28,599 nt of DNA from a virus: positions 1 through 28,599 of the IMG/VR virus record IMGVR_UViG_3300021962_000494; one strand, written 5' to 3'. Positions 1,970 to 26,700 of the stretch are shown piece by piece; position 1 is the first letter of the stretch, and every line of letters begins with the position of its first letter. The notes under the pieces were generated by a model, which worked only from the letters and a program-made list of their open reading frames with translations, was not told where the DNA came from and ran no database searches. The translations under genes and the position numbers were made by a program.

Positions 1970-2284
1970 TTAATCAGTCCAAGTTAATCTTTCTGGTTGA
2001 TATCTCTGCGAACTCTTAATTTTTAAAGAACTTGTTGTTTGTGGATAAATGTTATGAACAATCGCTCCTGGATATTCATCTTGGAGTTGCTCAGCAAGCT
2101 CATTTTTATTCATCATTTTGCCTTCAACTTCCATACGATATAATTTTCCTTGCCAAACTACATCAGCTAAAAAAGATTCTCCAACTGGTTCTGATTGTGA
2201 TTCAGAACTATTGATATAGAGATTTCCATTGAAATCTCCTGCAATATTGATGCTTTCTGTTAAAAAGTCTTTGAATGATTTCAT
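1970..2284 (-). CDS. Small candidate internal head protein with capsid-targeting-like N-terminus, 104 aa
   Basis: The first residues MKSFKDFLTES closely follow the capsid-targeting sequence of T4 internal proteins (as I recall, MKTYQEFIAEA in IPIII), with the L/I-x-E cleavage site of prohead protease gp21 at residues 8-10. The inference is that it is packed into the prohead and loses its first 10 residues on maturation. The remainder contains GDFNGNLYIN, a conserved-looking VVWQGKLYRMEV strand pair and a short helical part (NKNELAEQLQDEY); no enzyme motif is visible. The start codon overlaps the TAA stop of the HNH gene by one base (TAATG). A perfect TATAAATA late promoter lies 44-51 bases upstream inside the HNH gene. 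Similar small ORFs occur in T4-like cyanophages. The head location is inference only. Confidence 0.75.
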   Translation of the reverse strand: MKSFKDFLTESINIAGDFNGNLYINSSESQSEPVGESFLADVVWQGKLYRMEVEGKMMNKNELAEQLQDEYPGAIVHNIYPQTTSSLKIKSSQRYQPERLTWTD

Positions 2285-2288
2285 TACT
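2279..2288. repeat. 10-bp direct repeat, copy 1 (pairs with 2700-2709)
   Basis: TTTCATTACT on the plus strand, AGTAATGAAA on the minus strand. This copy covers the start codon of the 104-aa gene; the second copy precedes the HNH gene. The pair brackets the HNH gene and could be an insertion scar, though TAATGAAA is a plausible chance match in an AT-rich genome with TAATG gene junctions. Confidence 0.55.
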
Positions 2289-2694
2289 TATCTCTTTCTC
2301 TTAAATACTCTATTGCTGCCTGTAAAGTATTTATATTATCCTTAAAATTTCCTAATCCTCTATTACAATGATTACATAACATACCTCTAAATTTTCCACT
2401 TTCGTGATTGTGGTCCATAACTAGTGCATAAATTTTTCCTAAATGTTTATTATTCCTAGACCCTGCAAATTCATTACCACCACAAATATCACATTTTTCT
2501 TGTTTTTTTAATTCTTTAACTTCATTATCAGAAAGTTGTCCTCTAAATTTTCCTCTGCATATTTCTGCCCTATAAGTTGCCCTACATTTTCTACACCAAC
2601 TATCCAAACCATCTTTACATTTATTATGTGGGGGAAAATTTACAGTATCTCTAGACTTTTCTTCTTTACATCTAGTGCAAATTTTAGTATTCAT
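2284..2694 (-). CDS. Endonuclease VII-like HNH nuclease, 136 aa
   Basis: A His-Me finger nuclease of the recombination endonuclease VII family (T4 gp49 relatives), which includes Holliday-junction resolvases and free-standing homing-type endonucleases. The C-terminal domain (residues 66-132) has CDIC at 68-71, the catalytic DHNH at 94-97, CNHC at 107-110 directly followed by N111, and the family signature RGMLCNHCNRGLG. The N-terminus adds a second zinc pair, C6/C9 and C34/C37. It sits between virion genes where T4 has no such gene, and is flanked by a short direct repeat, so a mobile or homing origin is likely. Its start and ribosome-binding site are buried in a perfect 20-bp inverted repeat with a late promoter in the loop. 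The start is the only ATG in frame near the 5' end; the AAAAAGG is unusually close (1 nt) to it. Role as resolvase versus homing nuclease is undecided. Confidence 0.9.
   Translation of the reverse strand: MNTKICTRCKEEKSRDTVNFPPHNKCKDGLDSWCRKCRATYRAEICRGKFRGQLSDNEVKELKKQEKCDICGGNEFAGSRNNKHLGKIYALVMDHNHESGKFRGMLCNHCNRGLGNFKDNINTLQAAIEYLRERDK
2328..2335 (-). promoter_or_regulatory. T4-type late promoter inside the HNH gene, driving the 104-aa gene
   Basis: Minus strand TATAAATA, an exact match to the T4 late-promoter consensus. It lies within the codons for Asn-Ile-Asn-Thr near the end of the HNH gene. Transcription would begin about 2320-2323, giving a short leader before the ATG at 2284. It would supply the 104-aa, 515-aa and gp17 genes independently of the HNH gene. 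Confidence 0.65.
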
Positions 2695-2699
2695 ACCTT

Positions 2700-2709
2700 T
2701 TTCATTACT
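2700..2709. repeat. 10-bp direct repeat, copy 2 (pairs with 2279-2288)
   Basis: Same TTTCATTACT sequence (plus strand) as at 2279-2288. This copy lies in the downstream arm of the hairpin and contains the ATG of a four-codon reading frame that ends on the HNH start. Confidence 0.55.
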
Positions 2710-2716
2710 CTATAAT

Positions 2717-2724
2717 TATTTATG
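2717..2724 (-). promoter_or_regulatory. Late promoter (CATAAATA) in the hairpin loop, driving the HNH gene
   Basis: Minus strand CATAAATA, matching the NATAAATA form of T4-like late promoters. By analogy with T4, transcription would begin 5-7 nt downstream, around 2710-2712, just before the downstream arm. The resulting mRNA has a leader of about 17 nt that contains the ribosome-binding site but not the pairing arm. Confidence 0.65.
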
Positions 2725-2742
2725 TAATGAAAAAGGTATGAA

Positions 2743-4758
2743 TTAACACTTCCATCTTCTTCTTGCTTTACAAATAGGTTTATCTGGTGTTTTTGAGCAG
2801 TCTATATTGTGCATATCTTGCTGTCCTTTAGAACGTCTGCAATAATTAGCACGACGCTTTGCTCTTTTACCACTTGGATTCTTTTCAGTTACTGCAGTTT
2901 GAAGTTTTGAATCTGGATTTTCGCGACGATAAGCATCAACTGCTGCTTGACTCAAACCATCAGTTTTATCTTGACGATTGACTTTTTGCCAATCTTCTGT
3001 AAGTTCTTCTCTCCAGTTAGAATATTGTTCTTTTTGTTGCTTCTTAGGACCAGTCAATAAACCATAAATACCACCCGCAATTGCTAGTGGAACTGCAACT
3101 TTAGGGTTCTTTACTTTTGATAATGTTTTTAAAAATGATGGTTTTGTTGCAATTTTTGCTGCTCTTTTTGCTTGTGCTGCTGCTACATTTTGCGATCCTT
3201 GTCTACGAGCTGCAGACATGCGATCATAAACTGCTTGTGCTCTAGGATCTCTAAGATTTTGTCCTTTGTTCCATGTTGCTGGTGATTTAGGTACATTAGG
3301 CAATTGAGATCCAGAACCTACTGGTTTTGGTGTTGCTGATGTTGCTTTTTTTCTCATTGCATCAATTTTTTCTGCAGCGCCAGGATTTGATTTTTTAAGA
3401 TTTTCAATTTGATCTGGAGTCATATTTTTTAATTTATCTTCCCACTTTTCCGAGATAATTAATTCATCTCTCCAGTTAGAATATTCTTCATTTTTAACGC
3501 AATTTGGAACTAACTTTTTACCTTTCTTTTTCATTCCTTGTTGCTCATATCCATCCCAACACTTTTCGCCAATAAGTGTACTGCCAATTCCTTTGCTTGG
3601 TTTTAATGGTTCTGGTTTGATAATATCAATAAAATCTACATAATTATTTCCATCAACATCTTCAATAGATACATTTTCAGTCTTCATTTCACCACTATCT
3701 ACATAGTCTGCTGCACTGTCTAGATAATCTGCTGCCTTTGTAATTTTTGATTGAACCCAAGCTTCAATATTTCCTTCACCCTTCAGTTTTTTCTTTAATC
3801 TTTTCGCCGCAGAGATAATTGTGGAAATTTCTGAGCGGGCCATTGAATGCTCGTGATCATAAGACTCTGGAAAATTTCCTGGATGTGGCATTGTTATATT
3901 AAAATCTTTTTTAGAACTAATTATCTCTGCCGGTAAAGAAAACATATCCCAGTATCTTTCTCCATATCTACATTCATTTCTTTTTTCAAGTTTATTGCAC
4001 TTTGGACAAAATCTATCTGCCCTTTCGCGAATTGGAGTATCCCAATCATAATTAAGAGCACTTACACTTTCAGTCTTTGTTCCCCAATTTGCAGCACCTT
4101 TTTGGCGACACTTAACTAGTGCTCCAGAAGCGTATGCACTTGGCCAAACATCATACCTAGCCTTTACTTTACGGTAACAAGCATCTTTTTTACCACTACC
4201 TTTTCCAGGTCTATCTTTTACCTCTTGCAAATCTAATTCTTCTTTCATGTTTTTCTTTGGTTTATCGGTAGGCACGTATGTTGGTTTTGTGGCACCAGTT
4301 TTTTGCTGCTGGCCAGGATCTGCTGCTTTCTTCCTTCTCGCCGCAGATAATCTTTCAGTCTTAGTCATACTTGCTCTTTTTTCCGAAGAAACACACTTAG
4401 GAACTCCCTCACCAGGTTCATCGCTGGCACATGTTCCACCAGTTACCACATTTACCCAACCAGGTTTTCCATCCTTTGATTTGGATTTACCAAACCAAGC
4501 ACGAAGACCTTCTTCTTTTATATCCTTAAATTTTTTGTGATGCTTTTTGGCATCCGCTTCCATTTTCTTTAAGCGAGTATAATAATCTGGAATTTCGTCC
4601 AAGTGTTGAAGAGCAATGTCAGCGGCAAGATCTTTATCTTTAGTGTGCTCGTGCTCAATAGGAATTCCCATTTCAAGTTGATTTTTTACAAAAGAAACTT
4701 CAAGGCGATGTTTCTTTGCAATCTGTTCAACAGTTTTATGGGATTTTATTCTATGCAC
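2743..4758 (-). CDS. Modular phage protein with DUF5661-like N-terminus, candidate head-internal protein, 671 aa
   Basis: A Lys-rich protein built from short conserved phage modules. Residues 1-75 resemble DUF5661 (HKTVEQIAKKH ... GIPIEHEHTKD ... LDEIPDYYTRLKKME). Residues 84-165 hold a LRAWFGKSK/GWVNVVTGGTC module. Residues 190-217 contain DACYRKVKARYDVWPSAYASG. A cysteine cluster (CPKC, NEC) lies at 251-263. Residues 300-348 contain DHEHSMARSE and WVQSKITKAADYLDSAADY. Residues 390-411 carry CWDGYEQQGMKKKGKK. A hydrophobic GXXG-like stretch (553-570) precedes the C-terminal GLSQAAVDAYRRENP ... RRWKC module. YSNWR(D/E)EL occurs twice, at about 416 and 579. It starts with GTG at 4756-4758; an in-frame stop lies 30 nt upstream and no ATG intervenes. 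A near-consensus TCTAAATA lies 25-32 nt before it. The enzymatic role is unknown; prohead cargo is an inference from YSNWREELTE-type L-x-E sites. Confidence 0.85.
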   Translation of the reverse strand: MHRIKSHKTVEQIAKKHRLEVSFVKNQLEMGIPIEHEHTKDKDLAADIALQHLDEIPDYYTRLKKMEADAKKHHKKFKDIKEEGLRAWFGKSKSKDGKPGWVNVVTGGTCASDEPGEGVPKCVSSEKRASMTKTERLSAARRKKAADPGQQQKTGATKPTYVPTDKPKKNMKEELDLQEVKDRPGKGSGKKDACYRKVKARYDVWPSAYASGALVKCRQKGAANWGTKTESVSALNYDWDTPIRERADRFCPKCNKLEKRNECRYGERYWDMFSLPAEIISSKKDFNITMPHPGNFPESYDHEHSMARSEISTIISAAKRLKKKLKGEGNIEAWVQSKITKAADYLDSAADYVDSGEMKTENVSIEDVDGNNYVDFIDIIKPEPLKPSKGIGSTLIGEKCWDGYEQQGMKKKGKKLVPNCVKNEEYSNWRDELIISEKWEDKLKNMTPDQIENLKKSNPGAAEKIDAMRKKATSATPKPVGSGSQLPNVPKSPATWNKGQNLRDPRAQAVYDRMSAARRQGSQNVAAAQAKRAAKIATKPSFLKTLSKVKNPKVAVPLAIAGGIYGLLTGPKKQQKEQYSNWREELTEDWQKVNRQDKTDGLSQAAVDAYRRENPDSKLQTAVTEKNPSGKRAKRRANYCRRSKGQQDMHNIDCSKTPDKPICKARRRWKC

Positions 4759-4771
4759 TTTAACGAAAGTA

Positions 4772-5185
4772 TTATTCCTTATTATTTAGAAAACCTTGTT
4801 TGAGAAGTTTTGATAACTCTGAAGTTGATCCAACAAAAACTGCATTATTTGTGACATTATTAGTTGTTTTTGTTGTTTCCTCTTCAACATCTTTTAATTT
4901 CTTTTGAAGATCGATTAGTTTATCAGTAACATCTCCCACATTTTTAATCAATTGTCCAGCAACTTCATATGCTCTTGGGCTCCCTCCTTCACCCGCAAGT
5001 TCCATAATTCCATTAATTGCTTCTTGTCCTTTTTCAATTAATGAGTATAAGTTTGCTCTTGTATATTCATAGTCTTTTTTAATGTCTCCTTCCGAAACAC
5101 TCTCAACCTTTATTGGTGAGATAGGAACATCTACTTCAACAATATCAGCATTTTTAACCAATTTAGTATCATTATCTTCAGTCAT
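4772..5185 (-). CDS. 16: Terminase small subunit gp16
   Basis: DNA-recognition/regulatory subunit of the packaging motor, partner of gp17. It is 137 aa, compared with about 164 in T4. The core, about residues 38-105, contains DYEYTRANLYSLIEKGQEAINGI and then RAYEVAGQLIKNVGDVTDKLIDLQKKL, the two-helix coiled-coil region typical of T4-like gp16; the C-terminus (TNNAVFVGSTSELSKLLKQG) is also typical. The N-terminus is acidic and variable. It begins 12 nt after the gp15 stop. No good Shine-Dalgarno is visible before the ATG, so it may depend on coupling to gp15. gp17 does not follow directly as in T4: four genes intervene. Confidence 0.92.
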   Translation of the reverse strand: MTEDNDTKLVKNADIVEVDVPISPIKVESVSEGDIKKDYEYTRANLYSLIEKGQEAINGIMELAGEGGSPRAYEVAGQLIKNVGDVTDKLIDLQKKLKDVEEETTKTTNNVTNNAVFVGSTSELSKLLKQGFLNNKE

Positions 5186-5197
5186 AATTTATAAAAA

Positions 5198-5995
5198 TTA
5201 AATATCTGTTTGTTGAGTTGGACTATATGTTTTGGAGTCATCAAACGAAGTCCACTCCTCATTAAATCCAAAATCATCTCCAGGATTTGCATCAATAGGA
5301 TCCGGAACAACAGTGTATCTCATTTCACGTTTAGCATTTACTGTATCAGTGTTTGTATAAAGATCAACCTGTACCTTACGAATAAGACCCTCAGTCGTCT
5401 CTGCAACGGGACCAAAGAGATATGTTTTTGCGGTAAATTGTAATGTGTAAATTAATGCTCTTCTTGTTGAAAAATCTCCCTCATAATCATCTTGAAATGA
5501 GATATTATTTAATGTTATTGGAACATCTCTTTTTTCACCTATGGAGTCCAATAAATCAATGGATAAATTGAAAGATGGTTGGAAGAATGGCAAAATTTGC
5601 TCTACTATTTGCAAAGCATCTTCATTTAACTTTGATAGTATATTGAGCTCAAACCCAATATTATATGGAACAGGTAAATAAACCTTTTTCAAGTTTTCTC
5701 CATCAGATGCTTTGAATGACTGAGTTATGTTTGCTTTTCTACTCGGATCATATTGAATTGAATTCATTTCAAAAGACATTCTGGGTAAAATAATCTGAAT
5801 TGGTTTGTTTAGATTTGGTTGTTGTTGAATTCTTGCTAAAAACTTTTGAGTCGGACCATATCCTAAAGGAACTTTAATTTGACTAATGCTGTTATTACTT
5901 TCATCTTTATGTGAAATATAAATTTCATTAAACAAAGTGCCAAAAGCAACTATAGTTCTTTTAATAATTTCGTGATAAAAATAAGTTCCTAGCAT
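5198..5995 (-). CDS. 15: Tail completion/sheath stabiliser protein gp15
   Basis: gp15 forms the hexameric ring capping the tail tube and sheath and joining it to the neck. At 265 aa it is close to T4 gp15 (272). Diagnostic segments are the N-terminal MLGTYFYHEIIKRTIVAFGTLFN, then IILPRMSFEM, the strongly conserved ALQIVEQILPFFQPSFN (about residues 127-143) and the later EGLIRKVQVDLYTNT. The C-terminal tail (after about 235) is acidic and probably flexible. Its ATG overlaps the TAA of gp14 by one base (TAATG), implying translational coupling. It is part of an uninterrupted 13-14-15-16 series. Confidence 0.95.
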   Translation of the reverse strand: MLGTYFYHEIIKRTIVAFGTLFNEIYISHKDESNNSISQIKVPLGYGPTQKFLARIQQQPNLNKPIQIILPRMSFEMNSIQYDPSRKANITQSFKASDGENLKKVYLPVPYNIGFELNILSKLNEDALQIVEQILPFFQPSFNLSIDLLDSIGEKRDVPITLNNISFQDDYEGDFSTRRALIYTLQFTAKTYLFGPVAETTEGLIRKVQVDLYTNTDTVNAKREMRYTVVPDPIDANPGDDFGFNEEWTSFDDSKTYSPTQQTDI

Positions 5996-7380
5996 TAGAA
6001 TTTACCAAATGGATTTGATTGCGAAAAATCTACAATAAGATCTGCTTCCTGTTCGATCTCATCATTTTGACTATATTTATCATATATATCCATCGAGTTG
6101 TAACTTCCAACAGTATAATTACATAATGATTGTAAACCTATTATAGTTTCTCCTGGATAAAATCCTTTCGCAACATCACCACATCCAATAAATGATACTT
6201 TTAAGACCTTATTTTTAGAATCCCAAGACTTAACTCTAGCTTCAGTTCTCGATACAGATCCATATACTACCTCATTAAACAAGTAAGTTCCTATACCAGT
6301 CATTATTGATGGATTACTTATACTAACGATTGGTATTGAGGTGTATCCTGCACCAGATGATACCAAATTTATAGATGAAACATTTTTATTGTTGCCTAAA
6401 GAAGCAATAGCATTTGTTCCAGATCCATTGCCGATTATTGTTATTGTGGGTGAAGTTGTATATCCGGATCCACCATCAGTAACACTTATCCTGATAACAC
6501 CATTAGAAGAAGTTTCTATGGAGCAAGTTGCGGCAGCTCCAGTTCCTCCACCACCTATTATCCTTATAGTAGGAGTTTCTGTATATCCTGCACCAGCATT
6601 AGTTAAAACAATTTTATCGACAGAATATACTCCGCCGACTTTTCTAATTGATGCTATTGCTGAAGCATTAATACCTCCTGGTGGTGCCGGAGTTATTGAA
6701 ATTGTTGGAATTTTAGTATATCCAGTCCCATCATTATTTAAGTAAATATCTTTAATACATCCACTTTGTATCACCGCTTCGGCAGTTGCAGTTCTTCCGT
6801 AACCAATTAAATTTAAAGTTGCAATATATCCTTGATCTTTAACTAAAGTGTCTATTTCGTCAATAGATGTATCAATAACTTCATCTTCATATTCAAATAG
6901 TTCGCATTTCAATTCATAAACATAATTTTTTCCAAGTTGATAGAAAGGTTGTTCGTGCTCGACGAATTTAACTTCAAATAAACGTGATCCTAATGGAAAA
7001 TAAATTAAATCTCCTTCTTTAGGTCTTGTTGCCAACCCAATATCTTCAGCGTTTACTGCTTCAATAAACGGAGATATAAAATCTTCAAATCTTTCTTTTG
7101 AAATTATTAAAGTTAGTTCATCTCTTAGACTCATTCCAAATTTCGTTAAAATATCTCCAGATCCACCATATCCTTCATAAGTATTTACATATGCTTCTAA
7201 TAAGAAATTATCATCAAATCTTGAAGAAGTGACTTCTTTTAAGATTGATTCAGTTCTTACAAATTTTCTAGGTATGTAAGTTACTTCAACACCATATATC
7301 TTCAGTTGTTCATTTATCAGATCTTGTACTAATCTTTGTTCTCCGGGAGAACCTTGCAGAAAAAAAGGATTTAATGACAT
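5995..7380 (-). CDS. 14: Neck protein gp14 with an inserted GxGY beta-repeat region
   Basis: gp14 with gp13 forms the neck, closing the filled head so the tail can attach. It is 461 aa, against 256 in T4. The N-terminal part (1-160) is typical: GVEVTYIPRKFV, LEAYVNTYEGYGG, FGMSLRDELTLII, then EGDLIYFPL and PFYQLGKNYVYELK, which align with T4 gp14 EGDLIYFP and DPFYQLGQN. Residues about 197-356 are an insertion of four GxGY units (at 217, 263, 303, 342; 39-45 residues apart). A further segment, FNEVVYGSVSRTEARVKSWD ... FYPGETIIG, precedes a typical C-terminus ending NPFGKF. The ATG overlaps the gp13 stop by one base (TAATG). The extra repeats probably form an exposed beta domain on the neck. 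Confidence 0.93.
   Translation of the reverse strand: MSLNPFFLQGSPGEQRLVQDLINEQLKIYGVEVTYIPRKFVRTESILKEVTSSRFDDNFLLEAYVNTYEGYGGSGDILTKFGMSLRDELTLIISKERFEDFISPFIEAVNAEDIGLATRPKEGDLIYFPLGSRLFEVKFVEHEQPFYQLGKNYVYELKCELFEYEDEVIDTSIDEIDTLVKDQGYIATLNLIGYGRTATAEAVIQSGCIKDIYLNNDGTGYTKIPTISITPAPPGGINASAIASIRKVGGVYSVDKIVLTNAGAGYTETPTIRIIGGGGTGAAATCSIETSSNGVIRISVTDGGSGYTTSPTITIIGNGSGTNAIASLGNNKNVSSINLVSSGAGYTSIPIVSISNPSIMTGIGTYLFNEVVYGSVSRTEARVKSWDSKNKVLKVSFIGCGDVAKGFYPGETIIGLQSLCNYTVGSYNSMDIYDKYSQNDEIEQEADLIVDFSQSNPFGKF
6313..6792 (-). repeat. GxGY beta-repeat insertion within gp14 (four units)
   Basis: Protein-level repeats DGTGYT, NAGAGYT, GGSGYT and SGAGYT, each followed by a Pro/Ile-rich strand (IPTISIT, TPTIRII, SPTITII, IPIVSIS), spaced 39-45 residues apart. 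The plus strand shows the matching GTATATCC-type runs. T4 gp14 lacks this region. Confidence 0.8.
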
Positions 7381-8210
7381 TATCCAATAAAATCGTAAGG
7401 TGGAAGTTCATACTCTAGAGACATTACCTCTTTTATTTTATCCAACTCCCTTTCCGCATCTTCGTATATTTCTCTTCCATTTAATTCTATACCACCTGGA
7501 AGTTTAACTCCTCTAAATTTAATTAAATTTTGTCCCCACTGCCTTTTAATTAATGCAGTTAAATAGCGTTTTATGAAACTATCATTATAAACTTGAGTAA
7601 AATTATTAGGATCTAAAATTCTATAGCAATCAAGAATTAAAAAGTTTCCTGCTTTTTGTGACCCCCAGTCTATATCTAGATATAATCTATCTTGTCTTTT
7701 ATTAAATCTAACTTGCTTATCTGTTGTTAGTAAAAAGTCAATATCTTCTAAGTAACTTTTTACCATAGCATATTGAAGAAGTTCAACAGAATTGAAATAA
7801 TAAAGATCATTCAAAAATAGTTGATACTTAATACTAAACATTCCTCCAGATATTGAACTTGTATCAAACTTAAATACTTTTTCAATACCTATAACACTAT
7901 CCGGAACTTGTATAAAATTAGAACTTTCATACCAGTTAAACGACTTTCCTGATGTGGAAGTTGCCGTTGTAGTTACAATTCCAACTCCATTTGGTGCCTT
8001 TGCCCTTCCTCTATCAATGTCATCTTGAGTTATTTGATACTTGAGGTACATCCTTTCTACGCCATCAAAATGGCGCTCCTGGAAGTACTGTAGGGCATCA
8101 TCAACTAAATCATCTATTTGATCATCATCAACGTTAATCTCTAATACTGGCGCTCCTAGGCGTCTTAAACAATAATCTATAAGTTGTTGTCTTGATGCTG
8201 GTTTTGCCAT
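7380..8210 (-). CDS. 13: Neck protein gp13
   Basis: Head-completion/neck protein forming a ring at the portal with gp14. It is 276 aa, a little shorter than T4 gp13 (309). The N-terminus is characteristic of the marine T4-like group: SRQQLIDYCLRRLGAPVLEIN followed by an acidic DDDQIDDLVDDALQYFQERHF helix. Conserved internal segments include LDIDWGSQKAGNFLILDCYRI and the C-terminal LTALIKRQWGQNLIKFRGVKLPGG. It starts 18 nt after the 114-aa gene; no clear Shine-Dalgarno is visible (only AAAA before ATG). The gp14 start overlaps its stop. Confidence 0.94.
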   Translation of the reverse strand: MAKPASRQQLIDYCLRRLGAPVLEINVDDDQIDDLVDDALQYFQERHFDGVERMYLKYQITQDDIDRGRAKAPNGVGIVTTTATSTSGKSFNWYESSNFIQVPDSVIGIEKVFKFDTSSISGGMFSIKYQLFLNDLYYFNSVELLQYAMVKSYLEDIDFLLTTDKQVRFNKRQDRLYLDIDWGSQKAGNFLILDCYRILDPNNFTQVYNDSFIKRYLTALIKRQWGQNLIKFRGVKLPGGIELNGREIYEDAERELDKIKEVMSLEYELPPYDFIG

Positions 8211-17752: not shown

Positions 17753-20700
17753 TTATGTAAATAACTTTCTTACAGAACCAGTATCTCTCAATCCATATTT
17801 TCTTCTTTGAATAGTCGGGAAAGTTGATAGACCAGAATCGACAGTTAACCCAGTTACTGCTATAGCAACAGATCCCCCTTTAACTTTTGATAAAATTCCC
17901 CAAGAGAATTTTCCAATTGGATTTAAGAAGTTACTTGAAGTTTGAATTCCAGAAACATTTGTAGAGGAATGAATGTTTGAAGTTATAATTGCTTCCGGTC
18001 CAAGCCTTATTATGTTATGAACATAATAGATATTGTTTACAAATTGAGTTCCTATTCCAACTGTAGAAGAATTTTCGGAATCTATTGAAGTTAATCCAGA
18101 CCCAACCGCAGTATCATAGATATAAATTGGATATCCGACTTCCAAATCATCAAAAGTTGCAGAAGTTGGAGATCTTCTAACAAAGAATTTCAGTGCAAGT
18201 GGGTTTCCATTTGTTCCGGTTGTTGTGGTAATTCCAGTTACAATTCCAGAAAATCCTCTTGCAATAGGAACAAATTGCGACTGTCTCTCAAATTGAAGTA
18301 AATCGGTATTAATATCGGGGAGAACTGTTATAACCTGGGGAGGATTATCTTTATTATATCCAAAACCTGGATCTAATATTGTAATAGGTCCAATTAGAGA
18401 TCCGTTAGATGCAGTTCCTATTGCAAGAGCGGTTGTTCCTATCCCAACTCCAATCTTATTTGGTGCTGAAATTTTAATCTGAACGTTGCCATCAGTATAT
18501 CCAACACCTGGGCTAACAATATCCAAAGAACTAATAGATCCATCATTAGAAACTATTGCGGTTACGGATGCAGATACTGGGTCATCACTGTGAACAACTA
18601 GTCCATTATACTTGTCTATTATAACACCATAGTTGTTCTCTTCATAATTGAAGAATTCAGCATCATCCACAAAAAGTTTATCATCAGTTATTGCAAAATT
18701 TTTAATAATTTTTGCAGTTGGATAAACTTGACTTTCTAAAGAATCCCTTGTTTTATAAACAAGTTCTCCATTTATAGTTAAATCTCTTTTTTGCTTGATC
18801 CAATCAAGAGGTCTTTCGTTATTTTCATCTATTCCAAATCCAGTGTAAATATTAGTTTGTACCAAATCAGATCCAGAAAAATCTTCAATTCTTCTAAGTT
18901 CTTGATCTCTTGTAGATTCAATAGTATTTAATTTTCTAACTTGAACCGAATCGCCTATTTTTAACGTTTCATTGATATCAACAAAGAGAGTATCAACTTC
19001 TCTAGTTCCCCTATAAAAGAAGATTGCAATATTTGCTTCTTTTATAGGAGCTTCTTGGAATAAAAATGAACTTCCACCTTCAAAAGTGTAAGCCACTTTT
19101 GGTTGCTGAATAACTCCATTGACGAATATAACTAAAACTTGATCCAAATCAATATTTGGGTATTGTGAATTCGCTAAATCTTTTTCAAAACTTAGAAGTT
19201 GTCCTTTATAGTATAATGGGAATCTTTTTCTTACGCCATCTTGTAAATTTTTAATTGAATCAATATAATCCAATTCACCAAACTGCCAAGATGCAAAAGT
19301 ATCGGAGAATACTTCTGTGACTGTTAATTCAAATTCAGATAATGGGGATACCAAACCTCTATCAGTCACCAAACCAACTGGTTTAAATACATCACCTAAT
19401 TGGAATCCATATCCGGATCTTTCAATCTTGAATGATTTAACTTCATATAAAGATCCTTCTGCAACTGTTTTAGTTGGTAAGGTAGAATATGCAATAGCAT
19501 TAGTTACAATTCCAACAAATGACCCAATTGCAGAAGATACATCTACACAGTCTGATGGACCATAAACTCCTGGAACTCCAGAAACATCACCAATAACGGT
19601 ATTATCTTTATGTTGAGTTAATGATGAATATCCATTAATATTAATAGTTTCATTTCTCATGGCCTGTATTGCCAGAGACTTAACTTGCTCATAAACATAT
19701 ATTGATTCAGTTTGTTCACCACTCAATAAAATTGGATTATCAACATAAATTTTTGCAGCGTCATAAACTTTATCATTTCCGGAGTATCTTAAATTATATG
19801 TAATTGATTCTAAAACATCAATCACATCATCAATACAATTTTGATTTCCTCCGGGTATTGTGAATGAAGGATAAGCTGCTAACATTCTTCCAACCGCAAC
19901 TTCTGCTATTAATTGTTTATTTGAATCAATTAAATTGGCAGCATCTGCATTTTTTCCTGGAATTTTTCTACTATTTGGTCCAACTTCAATAGAAAGAAGC
20001 ATATTCTTCCCACTTTCAGTTGTATTACCAATACCTCTTCTAGATACACCTATAATTGGTAGATTTTCGTAGGAAGGGTCGGGTACACTAATTACTGGAT
20101 TTACGTACCCTGTGCCCCCGTACACCACGTTAAATGCTAAGGTTCCTCCTACACCAACAGTTGCGGTAATCGTTGCTGCAGCGCCAGTATGATTGGCGTC
20201 AGTGACACCAATTGAAACTACATGATTATATCCAGATCCAAATACATCAGTACTTCCTAAACCGACCGAAATGATACTTCCAGTGGATGGATTAATGACT
20301 GCAGTTACTGATGCTCCAACTAAAGGAGCAAATCCCAAACCTTGTGTTGAACCAAGAGATACAACTAGTCCTCCTCTAGGTAATAAGTTTTGATTAATAT
20401 CATATTCCGAGTTAATTACCATACCATTTGTTGAGGTAATGCCAGTAAATACTACACTACTAATTCCGGCATTCTGCTCAAGTCTATAATTATTATTCTG
20501 ATTATTTTCAGTTGATGGAGTTTGAAATACTCCGTTAATAAACACAACCCCACTTCCAGTTTCAATACCTGTTGTATTAATTCCCTGAACTGACAACCTA
20601 TAGTACTGATCAATACCTGTAAATTTATCAGAAATATCATCGTACAATGTATTTGTCGTGTAGTCTTGTCTTAAAAAGACTCTTCCTCCAAAAGATGAAG

Positions 20701-23700
20701 TTGGATATGGAAGATTGCTCAAATCTCTAATATTTCTAGCACTTCCTCGCGGAGGTTGAGTAAAGTATATTTTACTTCCAACAATATTAAAAGATCCTCT
20801 ATAAACTATAGCATCTGTAAAATCAGTATGTGTTGATGAAATAGTGCCAGCAAAACCTCTCTTAACATTTACTAATTGCAAAGTTCCAATTCCAGCAGTA
20901 ATAGGTCCAATATTTGTTGTTCCTATTCCAACAGAAGTAACTAACATAAACTCATCATCAACTTTTAATAAATCTGTTGGTTTAATAGTTGAAATACCAG
21001 ACATTGAAAAATATGATGTAGCAGCACTAATTTGACCATAATTATTCACTAGTTTATATTTTATTCCTGTATAAGAAAGTGGTTTTTGAACAATTCCATC
21101 GATAGATATGACTGATTTTTCTAGTTTTTTGGTCATCTCCAATTCGTGAGCATTTCCTTCTCCGGGAGAAGTAAACGTAACGTAAATTCCAGATAGTGCG
21201 GATTCTCTTGTTGTAGATAATCTTATTTGATCTTCATTAATTCTAATCGCATAAACATCCGATGGGAGAACATTTGTCAAAAATCCACTAGAATTAGTAG
21301 TTTGGCCAATTCCTATTGAAGACTGTCCAACACCGACAAATGTTGAGACTGGTTTATAAATTAACTTCTCGCCAGTGCTAAAGAAATGATTTTTAATTTT
21401 AAGTAAGTTATTTTCATAATCTATAGTATCACTTGGATTAAATGTCTTTTTAAATATTGGAAAATTCGAATATTTGGCGTCAAATTCTAACCTATTGGCA
21501 CGTAAACCATTAATGCCATCATACGCAGACAATTTAACATTTTCTATAACGTGATCAAATGTTATTTCATTTGCTCCACTAATACCCAATGCTTCATTAT
21601 CGTAATCACTAAAAGTATAAATTATTTCATTATAACTTTGAACAAGAACTTTATCAGTTACTGAATCGTCTGGATAGAATTTCAATAAGAACTTAGTTCC
21701 ATTATATTCTCCACCAAAAGTTCCTATTCCGGTATTATTACCCACTGACAAGAATGGATATTGTTCTGTGTAAATATCTTCTTCATTTTGAACACAAATA
21801 ACTTGATGTATCGCAGTTGTATTTCCATAAGAAACTCTAACAAGAGATTTTACACTAGATTCGAGATTTACATTCAATTCCAAAACTGTAGATATGCCGA
21901 CATTATGAGTATAATTTGATTGATATCTTGCGGATCTTTCTGATCCTGCAGGTTGACCAGGAAATAAGAATCTAGAAGTTCCAATTCCCAATTCAGTTCT
22001 TCCAAAACCAACTATTCTACCATTAATTGAAACCTTAGTATTCAAATTATTGGTGAAATTGAAATAAAGATAATCATCAGGACCAATTTTTGCCTCGAAT
22101 GTTCCAAAATAATTAGTAGAAACTCCAACTTGGTTATCAACATAATATTCGGATAAGAATGTATTTTGTCCATCATGATCAACAACAACTTCAACTATGT
22201 TAGTATCAAATTTTACAGTATCAAATAGATACAGATCTGCAACAAATCCTTTTATGTAATTTTTAGGAAGTTTCAACAATGTTGAAGTAGATCCAATACC
22301 AACTTCGGAATATTTTCCCATCAAATCTATACATCCAACACTCAGGGTGTTTATTCCAACTTTAGATTGAGATATAATTTTGCCAAAAGAACTTTGAATA
22401 AATTTAATGTCATAATCAGTATTATATGGATCTGCTGGATAAAATCTTAACTTTTTATTATCAAAATCATCTAATACTCCAGAAAAGTCTCCAAGTTTTC
22501 CTGAAAAATTACTTAGACTGGATCTCTCGAAGGTATAAATGTCTTTATTGATAATGAAAACTATAAGTTCAATCAGTGAATATTTTTTACTTAATGGATC
22601 AATAACTTGTATTAAGTATTTTGAATAATCATCACTGTCTATAAATTCATAAATGTCAGTGAATAAATCTCTTTCATTATCCTTACTTGCAAACTTTTTG
22701 CTAATATCATCTATCGGAAGAACCCTATTTGATATACATTTAATATAATCGGTCAAACTCTTATTGACTTTTAAATATTTTGATTTTTTTACTCCTCCAC
22801 TTCCAGTAAAAGTATCATAATCTGTGACGAATAAGTAATTATTGATAGTATCTACTCTTTTTTCGTTGAAAATATCAAGTATAATTTGGTCTCTAGATGT
22901 TGAACCGACAGAAATTAATTTTGTTTTACTTTCAACCTGAAGATCCCCAAAGTTTTTAAGACCTGAGACATGCACCAATCTATTAACTGGATCAATAAAT
23001 TTTTCGTAATTAATATTACTCTTGATGGTATATGATAAATTTTGATAGTAGTCATTATCCTCAATAACCTGATGTGTTTCATTCATCTTTCCGGTGTCAC
23101 TAGTCCATCCATCAACAACACTATTGGAGTAATTAACCTCAAATTTTGCATTATTTGGAATTAAAGATGAAACTGAAGCAAGAACCCCAGATTCTTTACC
23201 TTTTATAATGTCATCTGTCTTTAATGCATATACATAGTATCCACTAACTTTAATATAATCTTTTTTAGATTCTTCTACGTATAAATCATGCTCCACAAAC
23301 CCACCATCACCTTTAATTAATAAAGATTCTCCTTTTATGAATTTGCCGAAATTTTGATTTAATTTAAATTTTGGATACTTATTTTTATTAACAATAGTTG
23401 CATATCCCGATTGATATGGCTTGGCAATCCCGGGATTGCTACTAAATCCCGAAACATTAAATTCTAGAACAGCTGGATTTGTATTTTCATAAGAAGTGAC
23501 TTTAAAAAACTCATAATTATAATTCGATGAGTTATATCCAGTTCCTTCACCCTGATTTACTATATTCTCTACAAAAATTTCATCTCCAACTGCAAATGGT
23601 GGATTTAAAAATCCATTAATTACTGGAGTAATTAACACGCATGTCGCTATTCCCCCAGATTTGGATGTTGTAATTGAAACAATGCCGACACCATTACTAT

Positions 23701-26700
23701 TATCAATACAAATTAATTCATGTTCAGCAGAACTCAATCCATAAACTGGCGCATCAATGGAAACTTCATTTACTGAACCATATGGAGTTTTACAAGATAC
23801 TGATCCTTCATCAACTATTTGTTTTGTTTGGGAGTTCCTAACTAATAAATTAGGTGGTGATGCATATCCAGATCCTGGATCTAAAATATCAATACTTTCT
23901 AAAGTATTTGAATTTTTTAATAGAATAACCGGATAAATGTAAGCTTCTGGTCTTAAGGTTTTGTCTGAAAAATATTCAAACCCTTGATTGATTATCCTAT
24001 ACTTACTTATATTCCCTATGTTTGATGATTTTGGAACGATTAAAGCATTTTTTCCATATTTAGTATTAATTTTTTTCAATTCTGGTAAGTAATCGTACCC
24101 GTAACCTGGATTTAAAATATTTAATTTTTTAATTCCCCCCATAGCTCGGGTGGAATTTGTAGAATACTTTAAAACATCACAAGCACCTTGAGAATAGTTA
24201 TTTCTTTCGGGAAAGTCTATTAAATTAATATTAAATGTTGTACTTCCAACCCCAAATATACTGTAGGATCCATTGTAAATACTATCAACGAATGATATTC
24301 TGGAATTATTGTATTCGGTTTGAATATCGTCAAGTTTTAAAACTCTACCATTTTTCTCTAAAGAATAAAATAAATCTTGAGAATAATTTTTATTATACTT
24401 TAGATTTATTAATGCTGAAGAACCATCACCAATAGTTCCTATACCTATAACAGATTGCCTTTCTGGAGTCCCATAGTATTCTTTAGTGAAATTACTATCA
24501 GAGTAGAATTTAAATTTATATCCAGATAGAGAAGTGTTAGAAACATCAAAAACTAATGTTGAATTTTTAGGTACACTTATATTTGGAGTTACTAAACTAA
24601 TTTGATGAAGATTTCCACCAATACTGCTAAATTTTACTACCTTAGGTGGATATGCCAAAGAATCTTTATATGTTTCTGAAAGTTGTAAATTATTACTATC
24701 AAGAACATGTGCATAGTATTCACCAGTACTCAATCCAGAAATGATAAGGTCATTACAATCATAGAATATTCTATCTCCATTTTTCAATTGGTGATTTTGA
24801 ATTGTAATTTTACTATCAACAATATTTACTGATGTTGAAGAAAATCCAATTGTATTGATTAACAATCTATTATAATTTTTATTAAATAAAACCCTGACAA
24901 TATTAGAGTTTCCAATTCCAACTGAAGTTTTTGGTTTTAATTCTAATTTAATTAAATCTCCAGACAAAAGATTATGGTATGTTGATACTGAAACTCTTGA
25001 ATTAATTTTAGAGACTTTTCCTTTTACTTGATTGAAATTACTTTCAATAGAAAATTCATTCTCATTTGGAATTGGTTCTAGTAAAAATAGACCATTAGTA
25101 TTTGATACTGAACTTATTCCAGTAACTAATCCAATAAAATCTTTAGACTTATTAATTATATAAACTTTTTGGAAAGAACTATCTGCAGGTGGAAGGTTGA
25201 AACTTTGTGAATTTGGGGAGTTTGCAACAACAAGAGAAGGACCTCCTGGTTTTTTTCTTAGTATGGCTTCTTGACCATTCTTAAACGGATGATTGGGAAT
25301 ATAAATTGATTGCGTTTGAACTGTAATTGGATTTATTACGTTACCAACTATATAACTCCTATTGATACCTACACCTGGCGTTGTTCCTATGCCAACAGAT
25401 TGGATAGGATTAAAGTAAATTTTATCATTTATCTTAGAATCAAAAAACTTAGTTCTAGCATTAAGTAAAAACTCATTTTGTAAAACATTAAATTCTAATG
25501 GTGCAGTATGGGCAAATCCAACATCTGCTCTTTTAACTCTAATAATAGACTGATCCTCAAATATATTAAGGACTGTCAAAATTTCAGTTTCTATCTTTAT
25601 TTGACTATCTACTTTAATAGACCTAGGAATCGGAGTTATTACAATATCTTGAACATATCCAGGAACTGTATTCAGTGCCATAGAGGACAATAATGTTGCT
25701 GTTTCAGTTTTTACTCCAATAGTATTAACTCTTTTTAAACCAGATATTGAAGTAGTTAATCCAGATATATTTACATAATCTGCATTTTTTAATTCATGAT
25801 ATGGAGAGTATCTTATAACAATATTATTTTCATACCAAGATAAAGTCACATTATCATATGATAAAGTAGAAGTCGTAATGTCTGTAATATCAATACCTTC
25901 TACTTCAGAAACAATAGCTCTTAAACCTCCTCCATTTCCATTTGAACTTTCAAAAACACATGAATCTCCAATCTTATAATCTTGACCAGGATTTAAAATA
26001 TTCAATCCATCTACAAATCCTTTAGAAATATCTTCAACTTCAGTAATTTGATTTACAAACTCATTAGACTCTAATAAGAATTCGCTACCACCATATGGAT
26101 CATTTACCTTATACGGAAAAGTATTACGTATTAATTTGGAACTATTGAAATCATAATATTGATCCAGTGTTCTGTTTTCTTGTATAAAATCAGATCTATA
26201 ATAATCTCCAACAAAAAATGGGTAGTAACCTGTAAGATTTTGTGTTAATGTGTCGGGAATTGTAGTTGCAAAATAGGCATATACTCCATCTGGAAAATTC
26301 GGAGTTTTGCAAAATCTCCCATTGTAAATATCTAAGTCACCACTATTTGTAAACTTATAATCTTCAGTAAAAAATCCCAACTCAAATCCAGTAGGCCTGT
26401 CAAAAACATTAGAAAGACTTAATGAATATCCAGACTCTATTCTCTTAATAGGAGTATTAAAATCTCCTGGTTCAGTATATCCATATGGTCCATATATTGG
26501 ATTTCCATCATATGCCCATCCAATAATTTCAGAATGCTTAGTTGAATTTTCTCCAAAATAATCAAATAGTTGATTATCATAACTTAATATAGAATATTTT
26601 AAGTTATTGTTATCAGTCTCAGACAAAAGTCTCGATCCAAACCTTTTTTGATTGTTTATAGTTAAAGATCTAATTTTAGTGTTAAATATTGCTCCAGTAC

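Follow-up and report, generated by a model that had tools for sequence, protein, structure and literature searches.

From which RNAs can a nuclease gene be translated when a perfect palindrome covers its start? The question is raised by a locus in IMG/VR virus record IMGVR_UViG_3300021962_000494, of which positions 1 to 28,599 (28,599 nt in all, hereafter the window) were analysed. At the junction of a 671-aa gene (2743..4758) and a gene for a 136-aa endonuclease VII-like HNH nuclease (2284..2694), both on the minus strand, a 20-bp hairpin with a putative late promoter in its loop overlaps the start of the nuclease gene. The element probably serves as a cis-acting expression gate of the type found at T4 genes e, soc, 49 and the I-TevI gene, forming part of a small, mobile-looking nuclease cassette within the gp13-gp17 operon: RNA started at the late promoter would be translated, and the RNA of the operon would not. 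As judged from the sequence, such a T4-type mechanism is well supported.

The hairpin arms, at 2743-2724 (5' arm, ATTCATACCTTTTTCATTAC) and 2708-2689 (3' arm, GTAATGAAAAAGGTATGAAT) of the minus strand, are complementary at 20 of 20 nt and flank a 15-nt loop (ATAAATAATTATAGA, 2723-2709), a geometry that a first-pass annotation had reported and that we recovered at exactly the same coordinates. The 5' arm begins on the final base of the TAA stop codon of the 671-aa gene, and the 3' arm holds, also as annotated, the sequence AAAAAGG (2702-2696) and the ATG (2694-2692) of the 136-aa open reading frame (ORF). A single nucleotide separates AAAAAGG from the ATG, a gap that is unusually small for a Shine-Dalgarno sequence, and the hidden part is therefore best called the start region. 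These arms form the longest perfect inverted repeat of the window, and the longest one in 200 dinucleotide shuffles of the window measured 15 bp. A leader peptide read from the 3' arm (ATG AAA AAG GTA TGA) was considered and rejected; variants of the arm with four A residues lose its frame. A search for known RNA families with the hairpin gave only sub-threshold matches to plant and animal microRNAs, as any long hairpin would.

The first-pass annotation had proposed to compare the folding of an RNA that carries both arms with that of an RNA begun in the loop, and the two differ sharply. The long RNA (2760-2660) folds at -28.6 kcal/mol (z -6.7), a value reached by 0 of 200 shuffles, and the short RNA from 2711 folds no more strongly than shuffled sequence (z 0.2). 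Opening the start region (-14 to +3) is computed to require 20.7 kcal/mol in the long RNA vs 1.1 kcal/mol in the short one. The same computation gives a change from 15.5 to 4.7/1.9 kcal/mol for T4 gene e, from 15.6 to 3.3 kcal/mol for T4 gene 49 and from 14.4 to 4.9 kcal/mol for I-TevI, all three listed in the literature as translationally controlled via such hairpins (PMC3014915, PMC2988022); the switch in the window is as large as those computed for these T4 genes.

The start of the short RNA would be supplied by the loop. The box CATAAATA (2724-2717, minus strand) takes its C from the last base of the 5' arm and its remainder from the loop, where the first-pass annotation had placed a late promoter with its start just before the 3' arm; the cyanophage late-promoter consensus is NATAAATA (PMC2984593). 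The late box of T4 begins at -13 and is situated roughly one helical turn before the transcription start (PMC2988020). Applied here, this spacing puts the box at -13 to -6 and the predicted +1 at A2711, three bases ahead of the 3' arm, which would leave the entire 5' arm upstream of +1. The consensus NATAAATA is rarer in the window than in its shuffles (8 vs 22), and the loop box is therefore not an expected by-product of AT-richness. A sigma-70 promoter in the hairpin was rejected as a candidate: there is one 9/12 match at 2742-2715, and the region has fewer such matches than shuffles.

If the element works as a gate, RNA begun upstream would carry both arms, form the 20-bp hairpin and hide the start site of the nuclease gene, so that little or no nuclease would be made from the long operon RNA. 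The gp55-dependent late polymerase would start at the loop box, and the resulting late RNA, beginning near 2711 and lacking the 5' arm, would leave the start site open for translation. The main effect would be to insulate the nuclease from the abundant structural-gene RNA and to give it a low, separately controlled late dose. We infer promoter activity, the start at 2711, the translation block and the late timing from this layout.

Homologous junctions, which the first-pass annotation had suggested searching for conserved pairing, largely retain the arrangement. A search of IMG/VR with the nuclease yielded 67 loci, and the conservation set consists of 26 distinct junctions whose nucleases share 67% identity or more. 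A hairpin lies over the start in 19 of these 26 (z -3.7 to -8.8), and the loop contains NATAAATA in 16 of the 19; the remaining loop boxes read TAAATA (L004, L016) and CAAATA (L018), the AAATA core being constant while the length of the loop differs between homologues. In L280 and L287 the hairpin is visible by eye, and in L027-L031, where the start codon has shifted a few bases downstream, it still covers the region ahead of the start. Across 17 aligned junctions the arms pair in 94% of cells, vs 40-46% with one arm slid; three pairs have changed on both sides, and the covariation score was matched in 3 of 500 shuffles. The arms also vary in concert, as the absence of one T from the 5' arm goes with the absence of one A from the 3' arm in 17 of 17 rows (giving T4/A4 and T5/A5 arms). 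That the palindrome is functionless, either a product of chance or the by-product of a recent inverted duplication, as the perfect identity of its arms in the window might suggest, is hardly tenable: the repeat is far beyond those of shuffled sequence, and such an origin is already contradicted by conservation of the hairpin across nuclease copies 70-95% identical, with arms of both lengths and compensatory changes.

The hairpin and its promoter travel together with the nuclease cassette. In 20 distinct junctions of relatives that have no HNH gene (including S-SKS1, S-CAM9 and Sf-FS3), the upstream stop lies -1 to 8 nt from the start of the next gene, which encodes a 104-aa protein; there, hairpin and 5' arm are both absent, and NATAAATA is absent from the last 60 nt. 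The HNH gene is present or absent at an otherwise intact site, as expected of a free-standing homing endonuclease, and the nuclease with the same hairpin is also found immediately ahead of gp17 or following different upstream genes (L014, L015, L017, L018, L022, L071). One locus, L078, has retained the 5' arm and the promoter and has lost the nuclease and the 3' arm. In L078 (1325-1846 and 1871-3613, minus strand), the gene for the terminase large subunit and the one of DUF6321 type both seem to carry intein-like interruptions (e.g., GKCFNINTKIRIKNKKTGK and CVPLDSQAITKDGLKTYDELKIG).

The cassette carries a second late-promoter box, TATAAATA (2335-2328, minus strand), at the 3' end of the HNH coding sequence and within it, 51 nt upstream of the 104-aa gene (1970..2284, minus strand; phrog_1742). 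This box is found at -51 in every copy of the HNH gene that precedes the 104-aa gene and is missing from those copies read that directly precede gp17. Its position suggests that it is likely a late promoter for the 104-aa gene, a 515-aa structural gene and gp17 downstream; promoters of downstream genes have also been described inside T4 endonuclease ORFs (PMC2988022).

Similar layouts precede other nuclease genes. We scanned seven complete genomes (S-SRM01, S-PM2, P-SSM2, Syn9, S-SKS1, S-CAM9 and T4) without bias for stems that carry NATAAATA in the loop and lie over an ORF start, and found 3 loci with scores of at least 24, vs 0.57 expected from 20 permuted motifs: gp207 of Synechococcus phage S-SRM01 (the orthologue of the window gene), T4 gene e, and an unrelated HNH/NUMOD3 gene in S-SKS1 (NC_020851, about 58180, minus strand). 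The last belongs to a second nuclease family (MKHIHHIVPKH...; not endonuclease VII), in which hairpins with a late promoter in the loop and unrelated arms also occur in L308, L324, L325, L328, L343 and L347. The stem in L328 is 20 bp long, with the box ACTAAATA and the ATG next to the arm; the arms in L325 show a compensating change; and computed opening energies drop from 12-25 kcal/mol to 2-7 kcal/mol, with a single exception among the relatives so analysed.

Within S-SRM01, all four distinct hits scoring at least 22 precede annotated endonucleases (gp207, gp225, gp320, which is the psbA-intron gene, and gp48). As 15 of its 353 genes are annotated endonucleases, this would happen by chance with a probability of about 2e-6, an estimate from these counts. 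A larger scan of 3.08 Mb includes loci fetched with HNH queries, which makes its enrichment for HNH genes partly circular, and only its whole-genome part (S-SRM01) is used for this claim. The stems of gp225, gp320 and gp48 are weaker than that of gp207, and gating of gp48 is uncertain because some 16 nt separate the end of its arm from the ATG. The gene for gp225, a second endonuclease VII (NC_070963, 142306-142761), lies directly behind the late sigma factor gene, and its weaker stem has TATAAATA in the loop. We also ranked by accessibility the S-SRM01 genes with NATAAATA upstream: gp207 came 3rd of 62, and the top three were all endonucleases. This ranking is not used as evidence because the shift in accessibility across all 11 endonucleases was not significant (Mann-Whitney p 0.27) and several of the high ranks stem from terminators upstream of the late promoter.

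Such terminators bear on another account, in which the hairpin between the 671-aa and HNH genes ends transcription or directs RNA processing. Its intergenic position and its stability would suit that role; however, the stem is AT-rich and overlaps a start codon, a T-run follows it on neither strand, and a scan for terminators gives no hit at this place. True terminators with a late promoter behind them do exist at other cyanophage endonuclease genes, and they look different from the hairpin; a role of this kind is accordingly extremely improbable. In S-SRM01 (NC_070963), a strong terminator with a late promoter directly behind it stands ahead of genes at 48536, 18053, 56059 and 209850, three of them endonucleases, and this combination is an alternative way of insulating a gene from read-through.

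Could the palindrome instead act as DNA, extruding a cruciform that serves the endonuclease VII-like protein as a binding site or substrate and so provides autoregulation or a homing site? Endonuclease VII enzymes cut branched DNA and cruciforms, and Watson-Crick covariation would arise from pairing in DNA as well as in RNA; wobble counts, too few and without bias, did not separate the two. There is also a precedent in I-TevI, which binds an operator at the late promoter of its own gene and thereby represses that promoter (PMC2988022). Nevertheless, we consider a DNA element very unlikely, as the same layout with unrelated arms precedes an HNH family other than endonuclease VII, the palindrome is missing from seven homologous junctions of the same gene, and a 15-nt loop makes a poor cruciform centre.

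Several observations weigh against a gate as we describe it. In the seven distinct junctions without a clear hairpin the nuclease gene is nevertheless retained. Some homologues have a NATAAATA box and no 5' arm (L019-L021, L024, L040), and others simply have no clear hairpin (L012/L013, L025, L026, L032/L033). Uncompensated mismatches occur in L016, L018 and L023, compensatory changes are few, and the paired loss of T and A may reflect only a few events. The first-pass annotation had named a retained gene with diverged arms as a reason to abandon its proposal, and in part this is what we find (L019-L021, L024, L040, L032/L033). Because several homologues keep the gene without the 5' arm, a clear hairpin or full pairing, the gate is common but dispensable.

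A further point against complete gating is that the upstream stop codon adjoins the hairpin. When 11 nt past the stop are blocked, as they might be by a terminating ribosome, the computed opening cost of 20.7 kcal/mol in the window drops to 7.1 kcal/mol, and the long RNA may therefore not be fully silent but allow some coupled translation. Taken further, this becomes a reading in which ribosomes at the stop of the 671-aa gene melt the 5' arm, the output of HNH protein follows the level of upstream translation, and the loop promoter contributes little. In the hairpin junctions the stop lies immediately before the base of the hairpin or overlaps it, the same blocking lowers the cost to 1.2-10.4 kcal/mol in other junctions, and the 5' arm in S-SKS1 lies inside the upstream coding sequence, all of which would suit coupling. 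Yet coupling needs no promoter in the loop, whereas 16 of the 19 distinct hairpin junctions keep NATAAATA there while the rest of the loop varies; three junctions that have no 5' arm (L019, L024, L040) still have the box; and an opening cost of about 7 kcal/mol is left. Coupling as the principal mode of control is thus unlikely, though not negligibly so, and a gate with a late promoter in its loop remains the reading that we prefer.

What such a gate would be for is a separate matter. At T4 genes, the rationale is to block translation from early RNA, and the first-pass annotation had extended this to the window. The layout, its conservation and the computed switch bear out the T4-like scheme; the blocking of early read-through is not supported in the form proposed, since the genes upstream are of the late class. 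They comprise gp16, gp15, gp14 and gp13 (4772..8210, minus strand), structural and packaging genes in one operon with the HNH gene, and genes for capsid assembly, structure and packaging belong to the late class in cyanophages (PMC7238727). Most of the long RNA that crosses the hairpin should for this reason itself be late, and the T4 rationale does not transfer directly, which also counts against a simple T4-type gate. Because the operon itself is late, insulation from it is probably a better reading than delay. Extending this tentatively to other loci, cyanophage HNH cassettes from several unrelated families may have gained a loop-promoter hairpin independently, its role being insulation of a selfish gene against a strong late operon rather than delay, with a second internal promoter restoring late transcription behind; we regard this as a possibility somewhat short of probable.

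Among known systems, the element shares with the T4-type class a start codon and Shine-Dalgarno sequence paired in the 3' arm of a stable long-RNA hairpin, a box whose position in the sequence would give a late RNA without the 5' arm, and arms kept by compensatory change, albeit with a modest number of events and some uncompensated mismatches. The class has early or middle genes upstream; here gp13-gp16 and the 671-aa gene occupy that position. Because the layout matches but the usual rationale does not, we describe the element as working like the e, soc, 49 and I-TevI gates, as far as its sequence indicates, and do not file it as a proven member. As at the window gene, the start sites of e, soc and I-TevI lie in the 3' arm, with a late promoter in or next to the loop and a late RNA without the 5' arm, and the hairpin of e lowers synthesis about 100-fold (PMC3014915, PMC2988022). 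Their long RNA comes from early or middle promoters, whereas late promoters of the structural operon would be the main source of long RNA at the window gene. T4 gene 49, which encodes endonuclease VII, is of the same protein family as the window gene (Barth et al. 1988, cited in PMC2988022; PMC3014915). There, too, a hairpin hides the start region and most of the 5' arm precedes the late start; however, the box of gene 49 (AATAAATA) is itself in the 5' arm, whereas that of the window lies at and in the loop, and gene 49 is the canonical gene, whereas the window gene is an extra nuclease cassette among structural genes. The segB gene of T4 and mobE of phage Aeh1 are likewise free-standing nuclease genes with a start-hiding hairpin and a late promoter (PMC2988022), but differ in nuclease family and host from the window gene, which is not known to cleave or home. 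The closest counterpart is gp207 of S-SRM01, 87% identical to the window protein, with the same neighbours, the same 20-bp hairpin and the same loop promoter. It is annotated only as endonuclease VII, and the text of the genome paper mentions no promoter or hairpin (PMC8557907).

The window belongs to the genome of a T4-like cyanophage, and all of the genes relevant here are on its minus strand, in the order gp13, gp14, gp15, gp16 (small terminase), the 671-aa gene, the 136-aa HNH gene, the 104-aa gene, the 515-aa structural gene and gp17 (large terminase). We named gp16 and gp15 by domain or family matches, and gp14 and gp13 by position and by matches to S-SRM01 and P-SSM2. The gene order in S-SRM01 (Kyanoviridae), the closest isolate, is the same except for an additional homing endonuclease gene between gp14 and gp15; this isolate originates from a freshwater reservoir, and the description of the window phage as marine is not upheld. 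The first-pass identification of the HNH gene as endonuclease VII-like is borne out by a match to Endonuclease_7 (PF02945, 1.6e-15; 57.2 bits vs a cut-off of 23.6) and to phrog_2633 (2.5e-26). Its homologues keep the CxxC, DHNH and CxxCN motifs, and the invariant alignment columns (C68, C71, D94, H95, H97, C107, C110 and N111) comprise the zinc and His-Me finger residues. Its identification with the canonical gene 49 of the phage was rejected: in S-SRM01, three Endonuclease_7 genes exceed the cut-off, and the single copy of S-PM2 closely resembles S-SRM01 210033, not gp207. The 671-aa gene has DUF5661 and DUF6321 domains. Among distant homologues of the nuclease (44-55% identical; L035-L063), most of those read have a start that overlaps or abuts the upstream stop, without a hairpin, and DUF6321 C-termini recur directly upstream of the nuclease, which suggests either that the two genes have long stayed paired or that DUF6321 genes contain a homing site. 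At the far end of the window (17753-28597, minus strand), an ORF that exceeds 3,600 codons and repeats G-S-G-Y-type motifs many times runs off the window end and probably encodes a giant structural protein.

The T4 gate that combines a late promoter with a hairpin is known from phages of enterobacteria and Aeromonas, and the class of mechanism is thus not new. As far as the searched literature shows (subscription papers lay mostly outside it, and an earlier report is possible), what is new is the gate in cyanophages, its link to a cassette that is present or absent, and its position within a late operon. The gate is conserved in Kyanoviridae and related viral contigs and moves with its nuclease cassette, and inside a late operon the classical explanation by early read-through would not apply. 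Because S-SRM01 has been isolated and its host is a named Synechococcus (KCZYC6), the long and short RNAs, their timing and the dose of the nuclease are directly testable.

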